Below the pieces are notes generated by a model, which was not told the origin of the DNA, ran no database searches, and saw only the letters and a list, made by a program, of their open reading frames with translations. Of a stretch of DNA of 64,000 nt, positions 19,426 to 50,084 are shown one piece after another. The translations under genes and the position numbers were made by a program. Source of the DNA: an uncultured Litoreibacter sp. (GTDB lineage Bacteria; Pseudomonadota; Alphaproteobacteria; Rhodobacterales; Rhodobacteraceae); the NCBI GenBank assembly GCA_947493265.1, contig CANLQL010000002.1:372001-436000 (forward strand), written 5' to 3'. Within the stretch, counting starts at the first letter, position 1. Every line of letters begins with the position of its first letter.

Positions 19426-19640
19426 GGCCGGGGCCCTCCTAAAGGTGATAAAAATTCCGACTCAAACGCTAGCACCGAAAATTCAAACGCTCAACCCGTG
19501 GGAAACTAATTTTCACCTAAGTTAAAAAAGGAGTGGCCAGAACGGTCAAGTCGTGCTTCATTTTCGTTAGCATCGCGCGAACGATTTTATCGGAAGATAG
19601 ACGGTGCAGTGAAAACCAACAGAATACACGGGGGTTCATC

Positions 19641-41706: not shown

Positions 41707-43002
41707 TTAGTTCATGCTTGCGTCGAAGCGTTCGAGCAGCGCGTTGCTCTCTTCTTCCATCGCGTCGAAGGCGGCATCAACTGTAGATGCGCCCGAGAAG
41801 ATGTTGTCATATTGCTTGTACATCGCCTCGCGGATTTGAACGTAGAAACCAAGACGGTAGCCTTTGGTCCATTCGCCGCCCGGTTGGGAAAGCTGAAGGA
41901 TGCCGACTTCTGCGTCTGGTGTTGACTCGTAATAGCCATCAGATTTTGCAAGGTCATAGGCTGCGTTCGTGATTGGAACGTAGCCCGTTTCCTTGTGCCA
42001 GAAATATTGCATCTCCGGGCTGGTCAAGAAGGCCATGAAGTCTGCAACGCCCTTGTTTTCCTCGTCAGGCTTTCCAGCCATCGCGAAGAGTGCCGCGCCA
42101 CCGATAAAGGTGCCTTTCGGCTCTTCAATGATCGACTTCCAGTAAGGCAGGTAGGAGGCGCCAAACTCAAATTCAGCGGATTTGCTCAGACCGCCGAAGG
42201 ACCCGGAAGAGCCCAGCCACATAGCCACTTTTTGTTGAACAAAAGCGTCTTGGTTGTCACCCCAGCCACGGCCGTAGAAGCCATACCAATCGTTGTCCAA
42301 CCATTCTTTTACCTTACTCCAATGCATCTTCATTTCGTCATTGTTGTAGAGGATTTTGACGTCTGTGCTGTCATAGCCATTGTTGCCCGTCGCCAGCTGC
42401 AAGTTGTGGCGCGAGTGGAAGTTTTCAGAGAAAATCCAAGGGCTGTGGCTTTGCGCAAGGGCTTGGTAACCGGCCTCTTTAATTTTCGGGGCCATCGCCT
42501 CGAACTCTTCCCAAGTTGCGGGTGGGGCGTCGATACCAGCCTTCGACAGGATGTCTTTGTTGTAATACAGCAAAGGCGTCGAAGAGTTGAACGGCATGCC
42601 GATCATCTTGCCGTCACTGTCGGCATAGAAGTAGCGCACACCTTCGATATAGTCTTCACCGTTGAACCCGCCTGAATGTTCGGCCATCAGGTCTTCAATC
42701 GGGATCGTTGCGCCTTTCGCATTGATGATTGTCGCGGCACCGGCGTCAAAAATCTGGATGATGTTTGGCTGCTGCTTTGCCCGGAACGCGGCGATGCCAG
42801 CGGTCATGGTGTCTTCGTAGCCGCCTTTGTAGGTTGGAACCAGATTATAGGTGTCCTGGCTGGCATTGTACTTGGTCGCGATCTCTTCAACGACCTCTCC
42901 CAAACGACCACCCATGGCGTGCCAAAACTGGATATCAGTCTGTGCAGCCACGGGGGCTGCAACGGTCATGATGCCCGCCGTCACTAGAGTAAACAATTTC
43001 AT
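41707..43002 (-). CDS. ABC transporter substrate-binding protein, UgpB family
   Basis: 431 residues with a signal peptide (MKLFTLVTAGIMTVAAPVAA) and the cluster-B fold of UgpB/MalE-type proteins (TDIQFWHAMGG; EEIATKYNAS; GMPFNSSTPLLYYNKDIL; GGAALFAMAGKPDEENKGVADFM). The WHAMGG and FNSSTPLLYYN stretches closely match glycerol-3-phosphate-binding UgpB proteins as I recall them, so the substrate is probably sn-glycerol-3-phosphate or a glycerophosphodiester. First gene of the nine-gene operon; AAGGGG precedes the start. Confidence 0.9.
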   Translation of the reverse strand: MKLFTLVTAGIMTVAAPVAAQTDIQFWHAMGGRLGEVVEEIATKYNASQDTYNLVPTYKGGYEDTMTAGIAAFRAKQQPNIIQIFDAGAATIINAKGATIPIEDLMAEHSGGFNGEDYIEGVRYFYADSDGKMIGMPFNSSTPLLYYNKDILSKAGIDAPPATWEEFEAMAPKIKEAGYQALAQSHSPWIFSENFHSRHNLQLATGNNGYDSTDVKILYNNDEMKMHWSKVKEWLDNDWYGFYGRGWGDNQDAFVQQKVAMWLGSSGSFGGLSKSAEFEFGASYLPYWKSIIEEPKGTFIGGAALFAMAGKPDEENKGVADFMAFLTSPEMQYFWHKETGYVPITNAAYDLAKSDGYYESTPDAEVGILQLSQPGGEWTKGYRLGFYVQIREAMYKQYDNIFSGASTVDAAFDAMEEESNALLERFDASMN

Positions 43003-43471
43003 TAATATGCCCCTTTCTTAGGATCTCAGATCACGTCGTCAAAGTGCTATAGAGGGGGTGAGGTAACACGCGTATGACATCGTCATCGCGCTTTAGTGGC
43101 CCCCCGGATATAAACGAAGCATTGTGCGGGACGGACAGCGAGTCAACTGCTGCGATGTTGATCACGCGCGGTTTGAGAAAGCGCACCTTTTGAAGGTATC
43201 CTAGAAAATCTTTATTTAGCAGCGCATTACGTCGCGCTTCTCAAGTTTAAATTTGAGGGTGCTGCCTCGCATTTAGGCGCGAGAGTCCTGATTTTCTGAC
43301 AAGGGTATGCCGAAATTTTTGATCAATTGGACGAATTTTCGGGCGGCACCTGCGAAGCGACTCTCAAAGAAATTAATTTTTTGGATTTGCCGCCTGCCGA
43401 TTGCGTAAGAATTTTCCATTTTATTCCAAAATCGCAAACGTCTTCGGGTTTCCGGTCTTTGTCGTCGTTGT
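43003..43471. other. Intergenic region between the Ugp-like operon and the STAND gene (469 bp)
   Basis: No convincing gene. The side near the binding-protein gene must hold its promoter and contains a palindrome ATGAC-ATC-GTCAT (43074-43086). A second near-perfect palindrome CTCAAGTTTAAATTTGAG lies at 43240-43257. A 73-codon frame at 43273-43494 overlaps the STAND 3' end but has no Shine-Dalgarno or recognisable features. Confidence 0.5.
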
Positions 43472-46400
43472 TCATGGCCACCAACTGGCCACATCGCGGA
43501 TCGCCTGACGCACTTCAGTGATTGCGTGATCCCCGCCCAATCGGTGCAGGGCCGACGTGCCTTGCTGCATCTGTTCAGCGGTCTTGAGTGGTTCGAGGTA
43601 TTTAAAAAAAGCGCCGTTCAATACCAGAAACAGGTTCAACACATCGGGCCGTGACAATTCTTGCGAGGCCTTAATGAATTCTGAAAACGCGACTGGTAGG
43701 TCCGTTTTGTCCATCAGGGGGATAAGCATCGCCAATTGCATGGCGTTTTGCCTTTCTATTTTCGTCTGCCGGACCTCGGTCCACAAAGTACGCGCGGCGT
43801 CGGCCGTCTCGCTTGGGGACAGCTTTGAGAAGACAAGCATGGCCAGGATTCGCAGCATGAGCCAGGCGTCCCGGTCATGCTTTTCGTCCATGCCTTCTAC
43901 CTCCAGACGCAGGAAATCGTTCAGCCGTTCTGCTGTATGATCAGCCGGTTCCATCAGGCCGAACTCCAACCACCGCCGGACTGATTCTTCATTGGGGTCT
44001 TCATGGTCGGATTGCTCATACTCGGCCCGCAAAGTCTTCAGTCTTGCACGCTGATCTTCGGTGGAGAACGGATACAGGAAGGGCAGGATGACAACCAAAT
44101 CATTGTCAGGGTTTTCCTTGATCTCAATCTCAAACTTTTCAATCATCTCGTCGATCATGTCCTTGCGGTCCGGCGCAGGCTTCAACGCGGCGATAAGCAT
44201 CGTTCCCAAGATCTTGTTTTCGAATTGATCAATCCGCCTCGTCTTGTCGATCGATTGTTCCAGCGCTATCGCGCGGTCAGCCTCTGGCAGTGTGGAAATC
44301 ACCAGGCTGGCTGCGAAAATTTCGAAAATGCCATTTTGCAAAACAGTTTTGTCACGCTGTTCGTGCACCAACCGCGAGATTGTTTCAGCAGGCAAATCCT
44401 TGGCGTTCCAGGTCAGGCTGAGAGCCGCAAGATTGCCAAGGTCTTCCTGACCAATCGTAAAGGCCAAACGTTGCGCATCCTCAATTTTTCCGTCCAGGCC
44501 ACGCGCGCGATAAAGTGGGATCAAACTGGCAAGCACTTTGCCGCGGTCGCGCATCTCTGGCAACGCATGGGCCATATTCGCAACCGTCACCAGATTTTCG
44601 TCTGACAGGTGTGGGACAAGTTTGTTCAGGCTGTTTCCGATGTCCCATGCACTGTCAAATTCGCCGATGTTCTCGATGGCGATCTTTTGCAGTGGCTCAG
44701 AAAGATGGGGCCCAACTTGTTCAAGTATTGTCGTTCGATCATAGCTGCTGAACTCGCGAAAGTTATCGAACAAAAAGCGGAGTTCTGACTCGGGAAGGGC
44801 CCAAGGGATCTTCTTTGTCAGTTCAAAAATTGCCTTTGGACCCTCTTTCGCGCCCCGCCCGATATATTGGCTGGCGATCACCTCAACCGGGATCACGGAT
44901 TTGGCGACGTCGAACAGCTTGCGCAGCTCGTAACTTTCGAAACGCTCTGATGCGTAGTCTAGAATTTTAAGCTGCATGGACTGAGGAACAACTGGCAACA
45001 GCGCCTCAAAGAAGTTCAACTCATAGAATGGCTTTGGTGGGTCGATCGTCTTGGCAATTTCCACCATGCGGTCTGTGTATTTCTGGCCCGTCTGCTGCAC
45101 AATTGTTGGAACCAGTTTGCCAAAATACCAAAGCACCCGTTCGTTGTTTGAATTCTCCGCTGTGAAGTCCAAAAATCGCGTTGTCAGATCATCATTTGCG
45201 GCGTCCTGCTGTTCGATGTCGTGCCGAAATTGCCAAGCGTCGTCCTCTATCTTTTTAGTTTCGGCAGACCGGATTTCTGGCTCTGCAGAGGGGGGCGGTT
45301 GGGTTGCAACAGGTTCCTGCGCGTCTTGATCTCGCGAACGGTCTTGCGCTTTTTCTTTTTGCTGTTTCTGGACGTGATCAACAAAGCCGTCGGGCAGTTG
45401 GTCAGTAAATTTTTCCAGTCTGTAAGTGACGAAATAGTCGTCTGGCTCCTCTATCAGGATCTTTTCCAAGGACAGCATTGCGCGGGTTTTGTGATGCTTG
45501 GGCAGCCGCAAAGCGACGGTTAGCAGCGCTTCAAGATAGCGAAACCCTTTCGTCGTTTCTGGCACCTCGCTCAACAGCCCATAGGCTTCGGAGGCAAGTT
45601 CTTCGGGAAGTTCCGCACCAAGCTCGGCGAAAATCTCTGCTTTTGCGTAGTCGTGCTGGTGGCGGGCAAGGGTCAAAACCTGCCGAGGAGAAATACTGCC
45701 CTGTTTATACAGTTCAACCAGCAATTCAGAATGGATGCCGATCCCGATACTGTTGATGGAGGTCAAGCACAGCAACGCCCGCAATTGACCACCCAACCCA
45801 ACCTCTGGTTCCAGAAGGCGTGCCGGATCGGTATCTGCATATGTTTGCAACGCGTCCAGGCATGCAGCGACATCACGGGCAAAACCCTGTTCGCCATCCT
45901 CCAAAGCAAGCCACCCTTTGCGCCAGCCATCTTCCAGCAATTCGCGGTATCGTGGAACCAGATCAGGGCCGGAATAGGTGTTCAGATGTTGGGTGTAGTA
46001 AAGCAACGGATAGGACGGTGCGGCGTCCGGCTTCATCGTTGACGCGTTCAGGTTCTTGGCGACTTGCTGGCACCAATCGTTGAATGCAAGATCTGCGGCT
46101 TTCACGTGGCTGCCATTGTTGAAATGATCTTCCCGAAGATATTCAGAAAGTTTGGGATGCGATAGCGCGTAGCCCGCGTCGCTTCCGTCACCGACCACAA
46201 AACGCTGCAATGGCTCCAACGTTTTCAATGAGATCAACGGTCTTTCGTTCATAACCGCAAAAAGCAGCGCTTCCAGCTCCACGAATTTCAGCGGTCCCAT
46301 CGCGCATGAAAAGATCAGCAATATGTATTCCATGACCTTGGGGTCCAAACGTGCGTGTTCGCGCCATAAACCTCCTTGGTCATCCAACCATTGCTTGAAA

Positions 46401-47254
46401 TAGGCTGAAAAGCCGGGCTCTAGCTTTTTCAGATCTTCCGGTCGCAATCGGGAGGCGTCTTCCCCCATTGCCCAAAGGTCGCTGACATAGAACTCAAGCA
46501 GCAACGGGTCCCCGCGTTCTGTCAAGCGGTGAAGCTCCCCGATCACATCCACATCCGTTGCCAGACCATCCAATGGACAGCCCATGCTTTCGAGAACCTC
46601 CGCAATTCCGCTTCGGCCAAGCGGGCGGGGCTCGATAACGTCGGCGAAGCCACGGCTTCGCGACCAACCCAGTCGCTGCAACCAGTTTTTCGGACCGCGG
46701 TCCCCTGCGAGGACCCGAGCGGATACAAGGATTTTCAGCGTTGCCGGTGGGTCGAGCGGAAAGATATCGGGATCAAATCGCCAACCCGTGGCTTCATCTA
46801 GGCCGTCGATAACGACAAGGGTCGGTATGGCGTCGCGAGAAATACGATCGAAATACTCAATGACTTTTTCGCGGTAGTACTGTGCTGGCTCAGACGGGGC
46901 CGAAGGTAGTTTTTCTCCCAGAATGTCCGCAAGACGGCCCGCAAGTGCCTGATAAAATAGAGGAGCGAGGTTGGTCTCAAACCGAATGGATATGGGGACA
47001 AAAACCTTGTGAAACCCTGTTTCGAGTTGATTGATCCAGCGCACCAGCAAAGCGGATTTACCGCGTCCTGCTGGCGCTGCTACCAACATCGCGGGGCTGG
47101 CGCGTTTGCCGGTAACCCACGCGTTCAGGCCCGCAATTTCTTTGCTTCGTCCCCCGAACGGTTTGGGTCGTCTGGGCGTGCCCAGATAATGCTGCATGAA
47201 CTTGCGGATCGAAAGTTGATACTCAGATGGTCCGACATGCGCGCCAATTTGCAC
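43472..47254 (-). CDS. Large NACHT/STAND-type P-loop ATPase, probable C-terminal part of a frameshift fusion
   Basis: 1260 residues from GTG 47254, which has no good Shine-Dalgarno. Residues about 33-330 are a STAND NTPase: FGGRSKEIAGL, Walker A AAPAGRGKS (59-67), Walker B LVVIDGLDEA (146-155), a sensor segment LKILVSAR, then helical regions. Residues about 400-1260 are mostly helical and look like an alpha-solenoid sensor. STAND proteins act as switches that assemble on ligand binding, many in phage defence. The frame is open 26 codons further upstream without any ATG, GTG or TTG, up to the stop of the small gene at 47332; see the frameshift signal. No separate effector domain is seen. Confidence 0.85.
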   Translation of the reverse strand: MQIGAHVGPSEYQLSIRKFMQHYLGTPRRPKPFGGRSKEIAGLNAWVTGKRASPAMLVAAPAGRGKSALLVRWINQLETGFHKVFVPISIRFETNLAPLFYQALAGRLADILGEKLPSAPSEPAQYYREKVIEYFDRISRDAIPTLVVIDGLDEATGWRFDPDIFPLDPPATLKILVSARVLAGDRGPKNWLQRLGWSRSRGFADVIEPRPLGRSGIAEVLESMGCPLDGLATDVDVIGELHRLTERGDPLLLEFYVSDLWAMGEDASRLRPEDLKKLEPGFSAYFKQWLDDQGGLWREHARLDPKVMEYILLIFSCAMGPLKFVELEALLFAVMNERPLISLKTLEPLQRFVVGDGSDAGYALSHPKLSEYLREDHFNNGSHVKAADLAFNDWCQQVAKNLNASTMKPDAAPSYPLLYYTQHLNTYSGPDLVPRYRELLEDGWRKGWLALEDGEQGFARDVAACLDALQTYADTDPARLLEPEVGLGGQLRALLCLTSINSIGIGIHSELLVELYKQGSISPRQVLTLARHQHDYAKAEIFAELGAELPEELASEAYGLLSEVPETTKGFRYLEALLTVALRLPKHHKTRAMLSLEKILIEEPDDYFVTYRLEKFTDQLPDGFVDHVQKQQKEKAQDRSRDQDAQEPVATQPPPSAEPEIRSAETKKIEDDAWQFRHDIEQQDAANDDLTTRFLDFTAENSNNERVLWYFGKLVPTIVQQTGQKYTDRMVEIAKTIDPPKPFYELNFFEALLPVVPQSMQLKILDYASERFESYELRKLFDVAKSVIPVEVIASQYIGRGAKEGPKAIFELTKKIPWALPESELRFLFDNFREFSSYDRTTILEQVGPHLSEPLQKIAIENIGEFDSAWDIGNSLNKLVPHLSDENLVTVANMAHALPEMRDRGKVLASLIPLYRARGLDGKIEDAQRLAFTIGQEDLGNLAALSLTWNAKDLPAETISRLVHEQRDKTVLQNGIFEIFAASLVISTLPEADRAIALEQSIDKTRRIDQFENKILGTMLIAALKPAPDRKDMIDEMIEKFEIEIKENPDNDLVVILPFLYPFSTEDQRARLKTLRAEYEQSDHEDPNEESVRRWLEFGLMEPADHTAERLNDFLRLEVEGMDEKHDRDAWLMLRILAMLVFSKLSPSETADAARTLWTEVRQTKIERQNAMQLAMLIPLMDKTDLPVAFSEFIKASQELSRPDVLNLFLVLNGAFFKYLEPLKTAEQMQQGTSALHRLGGDHAITEVRQAIRDVASWWP

Positions 47255-47293
47255 AATGATGTCACGACCAGCCGTCAGGTTTTCCGCTGAAAT

Positions 47294-47341
47294 CTGGGCT
47301 CCGCTGGGCGGAGAATAAGTTGAAGCCCCAGTTAGTTTCCC
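47294..47341 (-). promoter_or_regulatory. Candidate programmed -1 ribosomal frameshift signal
   Basis: On the minus strand the small gene ends ...TCG GGA AAC TAA, so the heptamer G GGA AAC (47341-47335, the X XXY YYZ form) sits directly before the stop (47334-47332). Shifting -1 gives GGG AAA CTA ACT..., which stays open into the STAND gene. Immediately after the stop comes a hairpin: CTGGG pairs with CCCAG (47331-47294) and encloses a perfect CTCCGC-CCA-GCGGAG stem. The 3-base spacer to the outer stem is shorter than usual (5-9 bases). GGGAAAC is a known eukaryotic and viral slippery site; lambda uses the similar GGGAAAG. Confidence 0.6.
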
Positions 47342-47784
47342 GAGTTGCCGGAGGTGATTTCGTCAATCTTAATATCGTAGCCAGCCTTCAGGTTATCGAC
47401 CACAACACCGCGCTCCGCTTTGATTTTGCCAAGAATGATCGACCGCTCGGAGGACAGGTTTTTCACAACGATGCCGCCTTCTTCGAGAGCGGAATGCAAG
47501 CCCGTATCCTTTTCGATCTCTTCGATGACCTTCGCAGCAGCTTCGATGACTTTGGCGTCTTTCGGGGCATCGCTGTCTTCAATCTCTTCAGCAGCCGTTC
47601 CCTTAGCGTTTTTCGAGTCGGGATTTTTCTCCAGACTTGGAAAGAATGCTGCTTTGTAAGTGTCTGTCAGAATGGTTTTAAGTCCGTTATAGGCGTCCTT
47701 TACGGCACCGGATGCAACGTCTTTGCTTGCAGCGACAGCGCCGGCGGTCACGGCAGCGACGATTGAAGAAACGATCGGGTCCAA
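47332..47784 (-). CDS. Small effector-associated-type domain protein upstream of (and probably fused by frameshift to) the STAND ATPase
   Basis: 150 residues from TTG 47784, with an excellent AGGAGGAATTCAA leader; a GTG at 47832 is less likely. Residues 1-90 (DPIVSSIVAAVTAGAVAASK; AVKDAYNGLKTIL; KNPDSKNAKG) resemble a helical N-terminal domain that I recall at the start of bacterial STAND and other conflict proteins. Residues 100-150 hold strand repeats (GIVVKNLSSERSIILG; GVVVDNLKAGYDIKI). A related repeat (AQISAENLTAGRDIIVQIG) occurs in the -1 frame just before the ATPase, which suggests a single ancestral protein. Confidence 0.78.
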   Translation of the reverse strand: MDPIVSSIVAAVTAGAVAASKDVASGAVKDAYNGLKTILTDTYKAAFFPSLEKNPDSKNAKGTAAEEIEDSDAPKDAKVIEAAAKVIEEIEKDTGLHSALEEGGIVVKNLSSERSIILGKIKAERGVVVDNLKAGYDIKIDEITSGNSGN

Positions 47785-47832
47785 TTGAATTCCTCCTTCA
47801 AAAATGGGTGTGCTTCGGCGGGTAAAATTCAC

Positions 47833-48135
47833 CGAAATCGCGAAAAAATCTAAAAACTATACGTCTAGAATGCGCGTCGCATGATGCTGCGCATAGGCAA
47901 AAAGTGTACCTTGGCGACCCTGCCTGTCAACAATTCGCTCAGCGCTGCGTTGCAGGTGCTTGATCAGACAGTGCCACCTAAACCCTCTCTTGGTTTCAGA
48001 AATGGCATCTACACAAGTATTGTTTTGGCGTCTAAAGACGTTTGGTAACCTTCCTGTCTGACTGCGTGAAAACTGAAGACAGGACCGCACAACCCAGACG
48101 GCTGTTTGCCTCTGCAAGACCCAAAGGACGAGCCC
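47833..48135. other. Intergenic region before the zinc alcohol dehydrogenase gene (303 bp)
   Basis: Holds the divergent promoters of the small STAND-linked gene and the dehydrogenase. An inverted repeat CCTGTCT (48053-48059) / AGACAGG (48077-48083) lies about 50-80 bp before the dehydrogenase start. A 55-codon frame (47881-48048) has no Shine-Dalgarno and no features, and I do not call it. Confidence 0.5.
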
Positions 48136-49170
48136 ATGGCGCATCAAGCAGCTGTTTATCGCGGGGATAAGCACTTTTCCATCGAACAGACAGAGGTGGC
48201 CGCACCGAAACCCGGTGAGGTTCAGATTGATGTCGCCTATTGCGGGATTTGCGGAACGGACCTGCATATTTACCTGGGACACATGGACGGGCGTGTGGGT
48301 TTTGAACGCACAATTGGTCATGAGATGTCGGGTGTGATCGCGGCCGTTGGGGCGGGCGTTGAGAACCTTGAGCCCGGTCAAAGGATTGTTGTGCGTCCGC
48401 TGGATCATTGCGGTGATTGCCCGGCTTGCAATGCGGGCCACGAGCATGTGTGCCACAACCTGAAGTTTATCGGCATCGACACGGATGGTGCGTTTCAGCA
48501 GAAATGGAATGTGCCCGCGCATACGATCCATGTGTTGCCGAACGACCTCGCGCTTAGCCATGCGGCCTTGATCGAGCCGTTGGCGGTAGCGGTTCATGAC
48601 GTTGGGCGCGGCAAGGTAAAACCCGGCGAAGATGTTCTTGTGATCGGAGGTGGTCCAATCGGTATGCTTGTGGCGATGGCGGCGCGCGATGCAGGTGCAA
48701 ACGTCACGATCTCGGAGATCAATGAGAACCGGCTGGCATTTGCGCAAAAGATCGGCTTTGCGGCGCTGAACCCAAAAACCACGGACGTCGCCGAGGCGAT
48801 CCACAGCAGTACAGGCGGGAAAGGGGCGGACGTCGTTTTTGAGGTTTCCGGCAGCCAACCCGGCGTGGATTTGATGACGGCAGCTGCTGCAACGCGCGGT
48901 CGGATCGTGATGGTCGCCATTCACGCGACGAAACCTCAGATTGATCTGTTCCAGTTTTTCTGGCGCGAGCTTGATCTGATCGGCGCGCGTGTTTACCGCT
49001 CTGAAGACTACGACAAAGCGATGGAAATCCTGGCGCGCGGTGTGATTGATTGCGACGCGTTTATTACGGATATTCAAGGTCTTGACGACATCGAGGCGGC
49101 TTTCAAGTCGCTGACCGAAAACCCAAATGCGATGAAATCTATGATCCGCGTAACGGAGAACTTGCAATGA
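48136..49170 (+). CDS. Zinc-dependent alcohol dehydrogenase, sorbitol/threonine dehydrogenase type
   Basis: 344 residues from ATG 48136 with AAAGGA upstream. Catalytic Zn ligands are visible in CGICGTDLHIY and IGHEMSG; the structural Zn Cys cluster is CGDCPACNAGHEHVC; the NAD motif is VIGGGPIGM. It overlaps the SDR gene by 4 bp. The pair (MDR alcohol dehydrogenase plus KduD-like SDR) points to oxidation of a sugar acid or polyol; substrate not determined. Confidence 0.9.
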   Translation: MAHQAAVYRGDKHFSIEQTEVAAPKPGEVQIDVAYCGICGTDLHIYLGHMDGRVGFERTIGHEMSGVIAAVGAGVENLEPGQRIVVRPLDHCGDCPACNAGHEHVCHNLKFIGIDTDGAFQQKWNVPAHTIHVLPNDLALSHAALIEPLAVAVHDVGRGKVKPGEDVLVIGGGPIGMLVAMAARDAGANVTISEINENRLAFAQKIGFAALNPKTTDVAEAIHSSTGGKGADVVFEVSGSQPGVDLMTAAAATRGRIVMVAIHATKPQIDLFQFFWRELDLIGARVYRSEDYDKAMEILARGVIDCDAFITDIQGLDDIEAAFKSLTENPNAMKSMIRVTENLQ

Positions 49171-49937
49171 GCTTGATGGATAAATTCAGCCTCACGGGGA
49201 AAACCGCACTTGTCACCGGGGCAAAACGTGGCATCGGGCGCGGCATGGCAGAAGCCTTGGCAGAGGCGGGAGCTGATATCATCGGCGTCAGTGCATCGCT
49301 GGACCCGGAAAGTTCGGACGTTGCGAAAAGTGTCACGGCTCTGGGTCGGAAATTCAGCGGTTACGCTTGTGATTTTTCTGATCGCGCGGCGGTCAGCGCG
49401 TTCTGCGCGCAGGTTTTGAAAGATCACCCGCAGATCGATATTCTGGTCAACAATGCGGGAACGATTTTGCGCGAACCCGCAGCAACTCATCCCGACGAGA
49501 TGTGGGATAAAGTGATTGAAGTGAACCTCAACGCGCAATTCATCCTGACCCGGGAGATCGGCCGCGAAATGGTTGCGCGCGGGTCTGGCAAGGTCATTTT
49601 TACCGCGTCCCTGCTGACGTTTCAGGGCGGCATCACGGTGCCTGGATATGCGGCCTCCAAAGGCGGCATCGGTCAATTGACGATGGCTTTCGCGAACGAA
49701 TGGGCTGCAAAAGGCGTAAACGTGAACGCCATTGCGCCGGGCTATATCGACACTGACAACACCGAGGCTTTGCGGGCTGATCCCGTGCGATCGAAATCCA
49801 TTTTGGACCGCATTCCAGCCGGACGCTGGGGCACGCCGGACGATTTCAAAGGGCCTGTGGTCTTTCTGGCATCTGACGCGTCTGCCTATATGAACGGCCA
49901 TACGATGCTTGTGGATGGCGGCTGGATGGGGCGCTGA
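49167..49937 (+). CDS. SDR-family oxidoreductase, KduD-like
   Basis: 256 residues. NAD-binding TGAKRGIGRG, NNAG motif, catalytic YAASKGG and the C-terminal DGGWMGR ending are typical of classical SDRs; FSLTGKTALVTGAKRGIG and the NEWAAKGVNVNAIAPGYIDTDNT stretch match 2-dehydro-3-deoxy-D-gluconate 5-dehydrogenase (KduD) proteins. It is translationally coupled to the zinc dehydrogenase. Uronate catabolism is plausible but no other uronate gene is present. Confidence 0.85.
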   Translation: MSLMDKFSLTGKTALVTGAKRGIGRGMAEALAEAGADIIGVSASLDPESSDVAKSVTALGRKFSGYACDFSDRAAVSAFCAQVLKDHPQIDILVNNAGTILREPAATHPDEMWDKVIEVNLNAQFILTREIGREMVARGSGKVIFTASLLTFQGGITVPGYAASKGGIGQLTMAFANEWAAKGVNVNAIAPGYIDTDNTEALRADPVRSKSILDRIPAGRWGTPDDFKGPVVFLASDASAYMNGHTMLVDGGWMGR

Positions 49938-49981
49938 TCTCAGCGCTTGGCCGCATGCGGGTTTAGTCTTATATTGGCGCG

Positions 49982-49997
49982 TGTCATCTTGATGACA
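49982..49997. promoter_or_regulatory. Perfect palindrome upstream of the beta-helix gene
   Basis: TGTCATC-TT-GATGACA is perfectly symmetrical and lies about 90 bp upstream of the beta-helix protein gene and 45 bp after the SDR gene. Form and place suit an operator; the factor is unknown. Confidence 0.35.
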
Positions 49998-50084
49998 GAA
50001 ATTGACGTTTATTGGTTCGTAACCTGACGCCTGACCGCATTGCCTTGGCGTGCTGTCGGTGTTTGCTTAAAGAGAAAGACCGCC

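Follow-up and report, generated by a model that had tools for sequence, protein, structure and literature searches.

The window analysed here, 64,000 nucleotides (nt) of a contig from an uncultured Litoreibacter sp., carries on its minus strand a STAND ATPase whose reading frame is entered from a small upstream gene of 150 codons. The two are very probably expressed by programmed -1 frameshifting, which would yield the free effector/adaptor in quantity and a lesser amount of its fusion to the STAND protein, as the original prediction, made from this sequence without database searches, had proposed. Frameshifting is supported because the downstream partner lies in a constant -1 phase across the family, slip motifs stand in phase, codon choice at the slip site is peculiar, the RNA after it tends to fold, single-frame fusions exist, and a control class of relatives behaves differently. 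In the sequence comparisons, no other account of the family's expression comes close to -1 frameshifting at a selected site, and the arrangement is conserved in a family that crosses phyla, with slip sites specific to lineages.

Layout of the Locus

TTG 47784 is the start codon of the small gene, 7 nt from its Shine-Dalgarno sequence (47798-47792), and the gene's final codons TCG GGA AAC are followed by TAA. The slippery heptamer thus abuts the stop codon, at 47341-47332 for the two together, just as originally described. The original reading of the -1 frame, as open into the ATPase through a joining stretch devoid of ATG, GTG, or TTG, also holds: the frame is already open 28 nt upstream of the small gene's stop, its first standard start is GTG 47254 (80 nt past the first base of TAA), and it ends at the stop 43474-43472. 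After a slip, STAND residues start at 47335, and the 1287 residues located 3′ of the slip bring the predicted fusion to about 1437 amino acids (aa), close to the earlier figure of about 1435. The features are as follows.

47792 to 47798, minus strand: Shine-Dalgarno sequence AAGGAGG of the small gene (read from the sequence)
47335 to 47784, minus strand: small gene with TTG start, 150 aa, candidate Bell-like effector/adaptor (open reading frame, relatives, AlphaFold2 model)
47335 to 47341, minus strand: slippery heptamer G_GGA_AAC, in phase (read from the sequence)
47332 to 47334, minus strand: frame-0 stop TAA, directly 3′ of the heptamer (read from the sequence)
47294 to 47331, minus strand: stem-loop 3′ of the stop, a possible stimulator that is not exceptional alone (folding prediction, z -0.81)
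43472 to 47362, minus strand: -1 open stretch, from the preceding in-frame stop to its own stop (reading of open frames)
47252 to 47254, minus strand: GTG, first standard start codon of the -1 frame, which would cut the head motif (reading of open frames)
47246 to 47293, minus strand: head motif ISAENLTAGRDIIVQI of the STAND part, beginning upstream of GTG 47254 (coordinates by arithmetic)
46790 to 47158, minus strand: AAA_16/STAND NTPase domain, PF13191, 33.4 bits against a cut-off of 32.6 (Pfam)
47054 to 47077, minus strand: P-loop APAGRGKS (coordinates by arithmetic)

The partner contains a P-loop NTPase domain of STAND type, for which PF13191 scores above and NACHT below its cut-off. The C-terminal part of the protein comprises about 1000 aa, in which the Pfam scan found no repeat family. 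PADLOC matched no system over its full length and gave a partial STAND_TPR match to the NTPase part.

Conservation of the Junction

To collect relatives, genome contigs were searched with a DNA pattern that represents the small protein's N-terminus and carries no information on the junction; this returned 65 stretches. Plasmid loci, Streptomyces matches (7 of 246 genomes), and Nocardia loci were added, the latter from 76 matches of profile A5 in 49 of 148 genomes (70 were fetched, the six omitted being among the seven weakest). When all these loci were scanned with a profile, 138 distinct small open reading frames (ORFs) were left, of which the 88 scoring at least 110 bits form class A. Setting aside L158, L164, L159 and the minus strand of L136 (frame-0 ORF of at least 165 aa), together with the truncated L025, left 83, and the strict count is based on the 77 whose downstream ORF has 150 codons or more; L069, L083, L121, L127, L129, and the plus strand of L136 have no such ORF and were dropped. 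Four Nocardia genomes (G1164, G1097, G1060, and G1177) have four or five class A profile matches each, which suggests a diversifying repertoire in some members of this genus.

In the strict set, the partner lies in the -1 frame in 75 of 77 loci. Profile A5 had itself been derived from loci with a known -1 partner, and the fairer figure is therefore 52 of 54, obtained from the loci not used in building it. A shift-prone motif is found in phase, in the last 14 codons and within the overlap, at all 75 of these -1 loci. It is C_CCU in 55, C_CCC in 13, and C_CCA in five (several C_CCN are present in 10 of the 83 loci, and there the script favoured CCU), with G_GGA_AAC in the window and G_GGA_AAG in L017. 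Three of the C_CCA sites read C_CCA_AAA and one C_CCA_AAC, while the Rhizobium site reads C_CCA_ACA and is accompanied by A_AAA_AAA. The type of slip motif varies by lineage: loci of Actinomycetota, Chloroflexota, and other groups have C_CCY or C_CCA_AAM, those of Alphaproteobacteria have G_GGA_AAR or A-runs, and the window itself has G_GGA_AAC. In upstream windows of 14 codons from 81 loci, C_CCN occurs in 45 of 763 and C_CCU in seven.

Phase and codon choice point the same way. CCCT is found 55 times in the slip phase, and three and zero times in the other two. The proline codon at the slip site is CCU in 55 of 73 cases and never CCG, compared with 36 CCU and 228 CCG among the 385 other prolines of the class A small genes, and 227 CCU among 2112 prolines of the partners. 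When 81 -1 loci are reduced to a dissimilar set of 24, the bias persists (CCU in 14 of 22 slip prolines vs. 16 of 125 others). In Escherichia coli, C_CCU and C_CCC, on a par with each other, exceed C_CCA and C_CCG in frameshifting, and C_CCA_AAR is shift-prone among heptamers, C_CCA_AAG having given the top value, according to the part of that study available (Sharma et al., PMC4066793). The slip sites of the family follow this order.

The first start codon of the -1 frame lies at least 50 nt downstream of the stop in 56 of the 75 loci and at least 150 nt in nine, and that of the L061 partner is placed, by count, just before the P-loop.

Relatives in Alphaproteobacteria

The plasmid search returned a homologue from Rhizobium ruizarguesonis (L005), with 33% identity over 40% of the ATPase. 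Its small upstream gene ends GGA AAA AAA TAA and includes the heptamer A_AAA_AAA, and the ATPase frame is again -1 and open through the stop, with the annotated GTG start located at the motif. In L017 the small gene ends TCG GGA AAG TAG (heptamer G_GGA_AAG) before a -1 partner, and the junction of L065 (Kaistia soli) is identical. L017 lies on a 43.9-kb contig catalogued as viral, and the module may therefore travel on prophage. A plasmid of Sinorhizobium chiapasense carries a further locus (L168), found after the heptamer rule was set and kept outside the class A counts, in which the junction reads GGA AAA AAA AAC GAA TAA, with the heptamer A_AAA_AAA/AAC; its -1 frame is open from -19, and the head motif ILTVGRDFIY precedes the annotated ATG directly. 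A heptamer is thus placed by the stop in all four shift-type alphaproteobacterial loci (window, Rhizobium, Kaistia, and Sinorhizobium). In the class B locus L036, also alphaproteobacterial (Rhodospirillales), an ordinary ATG stands 11 nt past the stop.

A heptamer at this place is rarely met by chance. In the fetched loci, nine of 572 stop-to-stop ORFs with 250 codons or more carry one in phase within the last four codon pairs; in the window this holds for one of 81 such ORFs with 200 codons or more, an unrelated antisense ORF. A second G_GGA_AAC of the window, at 19500-19506 on the plus strand, stands before the TAA that ends a long ORF; this ORF is antisense to a gene of 309 aa that looks by eye like a glutamine amidotransferase, and the site was judged to be due to chance.

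The database starts of the Rhizobium partner WSH04975.1 (L005 5947) and the Sinorhizobium partner WP_331375601.1 (L168 5498) fall within or just after the head motif, and both annotated proteins are probably N-terminally truncated.

Close relatives are sparse in the samples searched. The STAND part matched nothing beyond its own genome in a sample of 390 genomes of the order, and as profile A1 only its own genome in a sample of 385 genomes of the class; among 21 genomes of the genus the other matches were marginal (best E 0.04). The small-protein profile A3 found only the window's genome in the sample of 385 class genomes, and profile A7 only the Kaistia genome in a sample of 397 genomes of the Kaistia order. 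No match was obtained for the window small protein in plasmids, for the Rhizobium small protein in phages, or for the Streptomyces small protein in plasmids at 1e-8. A scan of genome contigs with profile A1 and viral scans with profile A4 and the window small protein confirmed no relative, a further scan gave back the contig already known, and a phmmer search of PDB with the STAND part gave no match. In a comparison aimed at an empty site, the ABC-transporter gene next door was shared by five congeners, but the 6 kb beyond it matches nothing else in positions 42501-50000 of the window.

RNA Folding Downstream of the Slip Site

For 67 representatives of 81 -1 loci, the stretch of 60 nt that directly follows the slip codon folds more stably than shuffled sequences (mean z -1.31, with 42% below -1.5), compared with mean z values of -0.43 to 0.01, and 3-16% below -1.5, in control windows at -240, -160, -80, +80, +160, and +240. 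Unlike sequences fold at the same place, as in L043 (z -3.48), L044 (z -2.44), and L069 (z -1.53), and the fold of the Rhizobium locus is weak (z -0.89). In the window, the predicted hairpin (-18 kcal/mol) pairs 47331-47327 with 47298-47294 in an outer stem and 47313-47308 with 47304-47299 in an inner one.

Control Class, Phylogeny, and Partners

Class B comprises lower-scoring relatives, 26 of which have a long partner. These partners lie in frames 0, +1, and -1 in eight, nine, and nine cases, a start codon is found between -60 and +63 of the stop in 23 of the 26, and C_CCN occurs in three. One of them, on an Arthrobacter plasmid beside a Tn3 transposase (L007, 5001-7906), reads GAC CCC TCC TAG with no start for 137 nt; from its sequence it looks like a further shift case, possibly of independent origin. 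A tree was built from 61 N-terminal domains and is poorly resolved; on it the shift label, which we also assigned to L007, needs four changes, against 19 with shuffled labels. The alphaproteobacterial trio groups in this poorly resolved tree with a support of 81 in the Shimodaira-Hasegawa-like approximate likelihood ratio test (SH-aLRT), apart from other class A rows, which is compatible with a single origin as well as with several.

NTPase domains (AAA_16, NACHT, or NB-ARC, some below the Pfam cut-off) are found in seven of 10 partners scanned, and two of these, L022 and L068, also contain TPRs. Partners not recognisable as ATPases also occur behind this type of small protein and junction (L059, L017, L168, and L006). 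That of L059 (1129-2262) is an FGE-sulfatase protein; those of L006 (5483-6151, about 220 aa) and L017 gave no Pfam match, and membrane helices are apparent by eye in L017 (6438-7361) and L168 (5414-6670).

Single-frame versions also exist, and the original prediction had named one polypeptide in relatives as a point to look for. Both cases come from the Nocardia search: L164 joins the small protein to NTPase-like sequence in a single 907-aa ORF, and L158 joins it to TPR-like repeats in a single 521-aa ORF (domains by eye in both). Such fusions are expected if the frameshift fusion is a working protein.

The Small Protein and the Shared Motif

The AlphaFold2 model of the small protein, built from 22 sequences, has a mean predicted local distance difference test score (pLDDT) of 80. 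It shows a helical N-terminal domain to residue 102, followed by two predicted β-arch repeats at residues 105-145, which are of lower confidence (pLDDT 52-75 over the last 50 residues). A PDB fold search with the model gave no match at E≤0.001, Pfam gave none for the window protein at E≤0.01 (best E 0.22), and NCBIfam none for the four small proteins tried. The model is compatible with a Bell-like domain carrying an amyloid-type tail.

Strand repeats on both sides of the junction had been taken originally for one domain split in two. The repeat VVVDNLKAGYDI / ISAENLTAGRDI flanking the junction has p=0.012 by shuffling, and GTG 47254 falls within the sequence that resembles the end of the small protein. 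The arrangement is better read as a tail motif of the small protein and a similar motif heading the partner, on the pattern of Bell/NLR pairs. The tail-head pairing in the Rhizobium locus has p=0.002 by shuffling. A simple pattern search over codons 1 to 60 gave a GRD-type head motif in 49 of 81 -1 partners, vs. zero and five in the other frames; the motif starts ahead of the first start codon in 27 of the -1 partners.

Alternative Explanations

Several observations weigh against frameshifting or soften the evidence for it. The class A score cut-off was chosen after the data were seen, and the loci are related, so that p-values overstate their independence. The L137 partner is in frame 0 despite a C_CCU site (GAC CCT), that of L149 is in frame +1 with no slip site, and L121 and L129 lack a slip site, although both also lack a long partner. 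The L149 partner appears by eye to be a TIR-like protein, and a switch of partner with loss of the signal is possible there. The third-position excess in the region ahead of the first start is modest (28, 22, and 48, from seven non-independent pairs). The heptamer G_GGA_AAC occurs in insertion elements but has low efficiency in E. coli, according to the available part of PMC4066793. The folding signal fades with distance, from z -1.08 in a window 6 nt later to -0.04 at 12 nt. The hairpin of the window, whose prediction bears out the original description, is no more stable than same-base shuffles (z -0.81, with 40 of 200 at least as stable). Tail-head motif pairing reaches p≤0.05 in just 13 of 75 loci, and the shared motif is the weakest element of the mechanism proposed below.

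The STAND part could instead be translated as a separate protein from the weak GTG, from a non-standard codon such as AUU 47293, or by coupled re-initiation. Class B relatives mostly have a start near the stop, in the window GGAG stands 5 nt ahead of this AUU, and a -1-frame start lies within -30 to +15 of the stop in seven of the 75 class A loci, overlapping it in five, so coupled re-initiation is possible in these seven. Yet the GGAG is buried in the stem, no such signal is seen by eye in L005, the first start is remote in most loci, and a separate start would leave the constant -1 phase, the in-phase motif of all 75 loci, and the CCU preference at the slip proline unexplained. As an account of the family it is improbable. 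Transcriptional slippage, which could also supply the -1 frame, appears more improbable still: long A runs can slip during transcription (available part of PMC3711429), and there are seven As at the Rhizobium site and nine at that of Sinorhizobium, but no such run exists in the window (GGGAAAC), in Kaistia (GGGAAAG), or in the C_CCN loci, and the in-phase codon position and the choice of CCU point to the ribosome. A sequencing or assembly error or a recent mutation splitting one ORF, the alternative raised originally, would fit the single-frame fusions L164 and L158. It is contradicted by conservation, as 75 of 77 loci, spread over several phyla and many assemblies, agree in phase and motif, and we give it next to no weight.

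Proposed Mechanism

Under programmed frameshifting, a single mRNA would be translated from TTG 47784. Most ribosomes would halt at TAA 47334 and release the free Bell-like protein, a helical domain with C-terminal β-arch motifs. A fraction would slip back one base on G_GGA_AAC, perhaps aided by the downstream structure, and produce the fusion of the small protein, a second copy of the motif, and the STAND ATPase. The fusion would be the scarcer sensor and the free form the abundant effector sharing its polymerising part, at a ratio set by the frameshift rate. Once triggered, the STAND part would oligomerise and seed assembly of the free form through the shared motif, with a logic like that of Gag and Gag-Pol, and the assembled form may act against phage at the membrane or by arresting growth. 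The immune role, the rate, and the sensor to effector ratio are those that we infer for such a system.

A bolder version is rather unlikely. In it, a STAND class crossing phyla would hold its effector to sensor ratio in the frameshift site, the sensor would be a tagged minority copy of the effector, and translation stress during infection would raise sensor output. Slipping would take place near the stop and, in most relatives, at a seldom-used proline codon, so a starved tRNA or slow release could increase the yield of sensor and make the ribosome part of the detector.

Comparison with Known Systems

If frameshifting is correct, an immune-type STAND family joins the known conserved bacterial genes expressed by -1 frameshifting, and offers a way for a cell to set the amount of sensor relative to a polymerising effector with no need for two promoters. 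Natural C_CCU sites become available for study by the dozen, and signal transfer from NLR-type switches to effectors becomes testable. Database STAND entries of such loci are suggested to begin too late, at starts that cut into or follow the head motif. Among the best literature matches, judged by title and abstract opening, none dealt with frameshifting of bacterial NLR/STAND proteins.

Two-gene Bell-BASS/NLR amyloid signalosomes were reportedly described by Dyrka et al. in 2020. By analogy, these amyloid-signalling pairs are the closest known system. In the available parts of the sources they occur mainly in Actinobacteria and Cyanobacteria (PMC7889193, PMC8086366), as adjacent or overlapping genes with common motifs, and the available part of PMC7889193 does not mention frameshifting. 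They share with the present family a small helical protein with a C-terminal motif, encoded beside an NLR/STAND protein; the similar N-terminal motif of that protein has a candidate counterpart here. By contrast, sensor and effector are described there as separate proteins, whereas here the sensor is predicted to be a frameshift fusion with its own copy of the effector.

With regard to expression, phage lambda G/GT and retroviral Gag-Pol are examples of -1 frameshifting that gives a short and an extended form. The family resembles dnaX and the IS1/IS3 insertion sequence (IS) elements, as far as the available parts of the sources describe them (PMC4066793, PMC3711429), in its in-phase tetramer or heptamer, putative downstream structure, and two predicted products sharing an N-terminus. 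It differs from them in being a cellular STAND family and in having C_CCU or C_CCC at the site in 68 of 75 loci, the main tetramers of IS elements being A_AAG, U_UUY, and A_AAA (passage on IS elements; PMC4066793 / PMC3711429). The AAA_16, NACHT, or NB-ARC domains, with TPRs in some partners, are those of the STAND/NACHT/NB-ARC defence NTPases; what sets the family apart from the STAND NTPases of bacterial defence is its mode of expression, by predicted frameshift.

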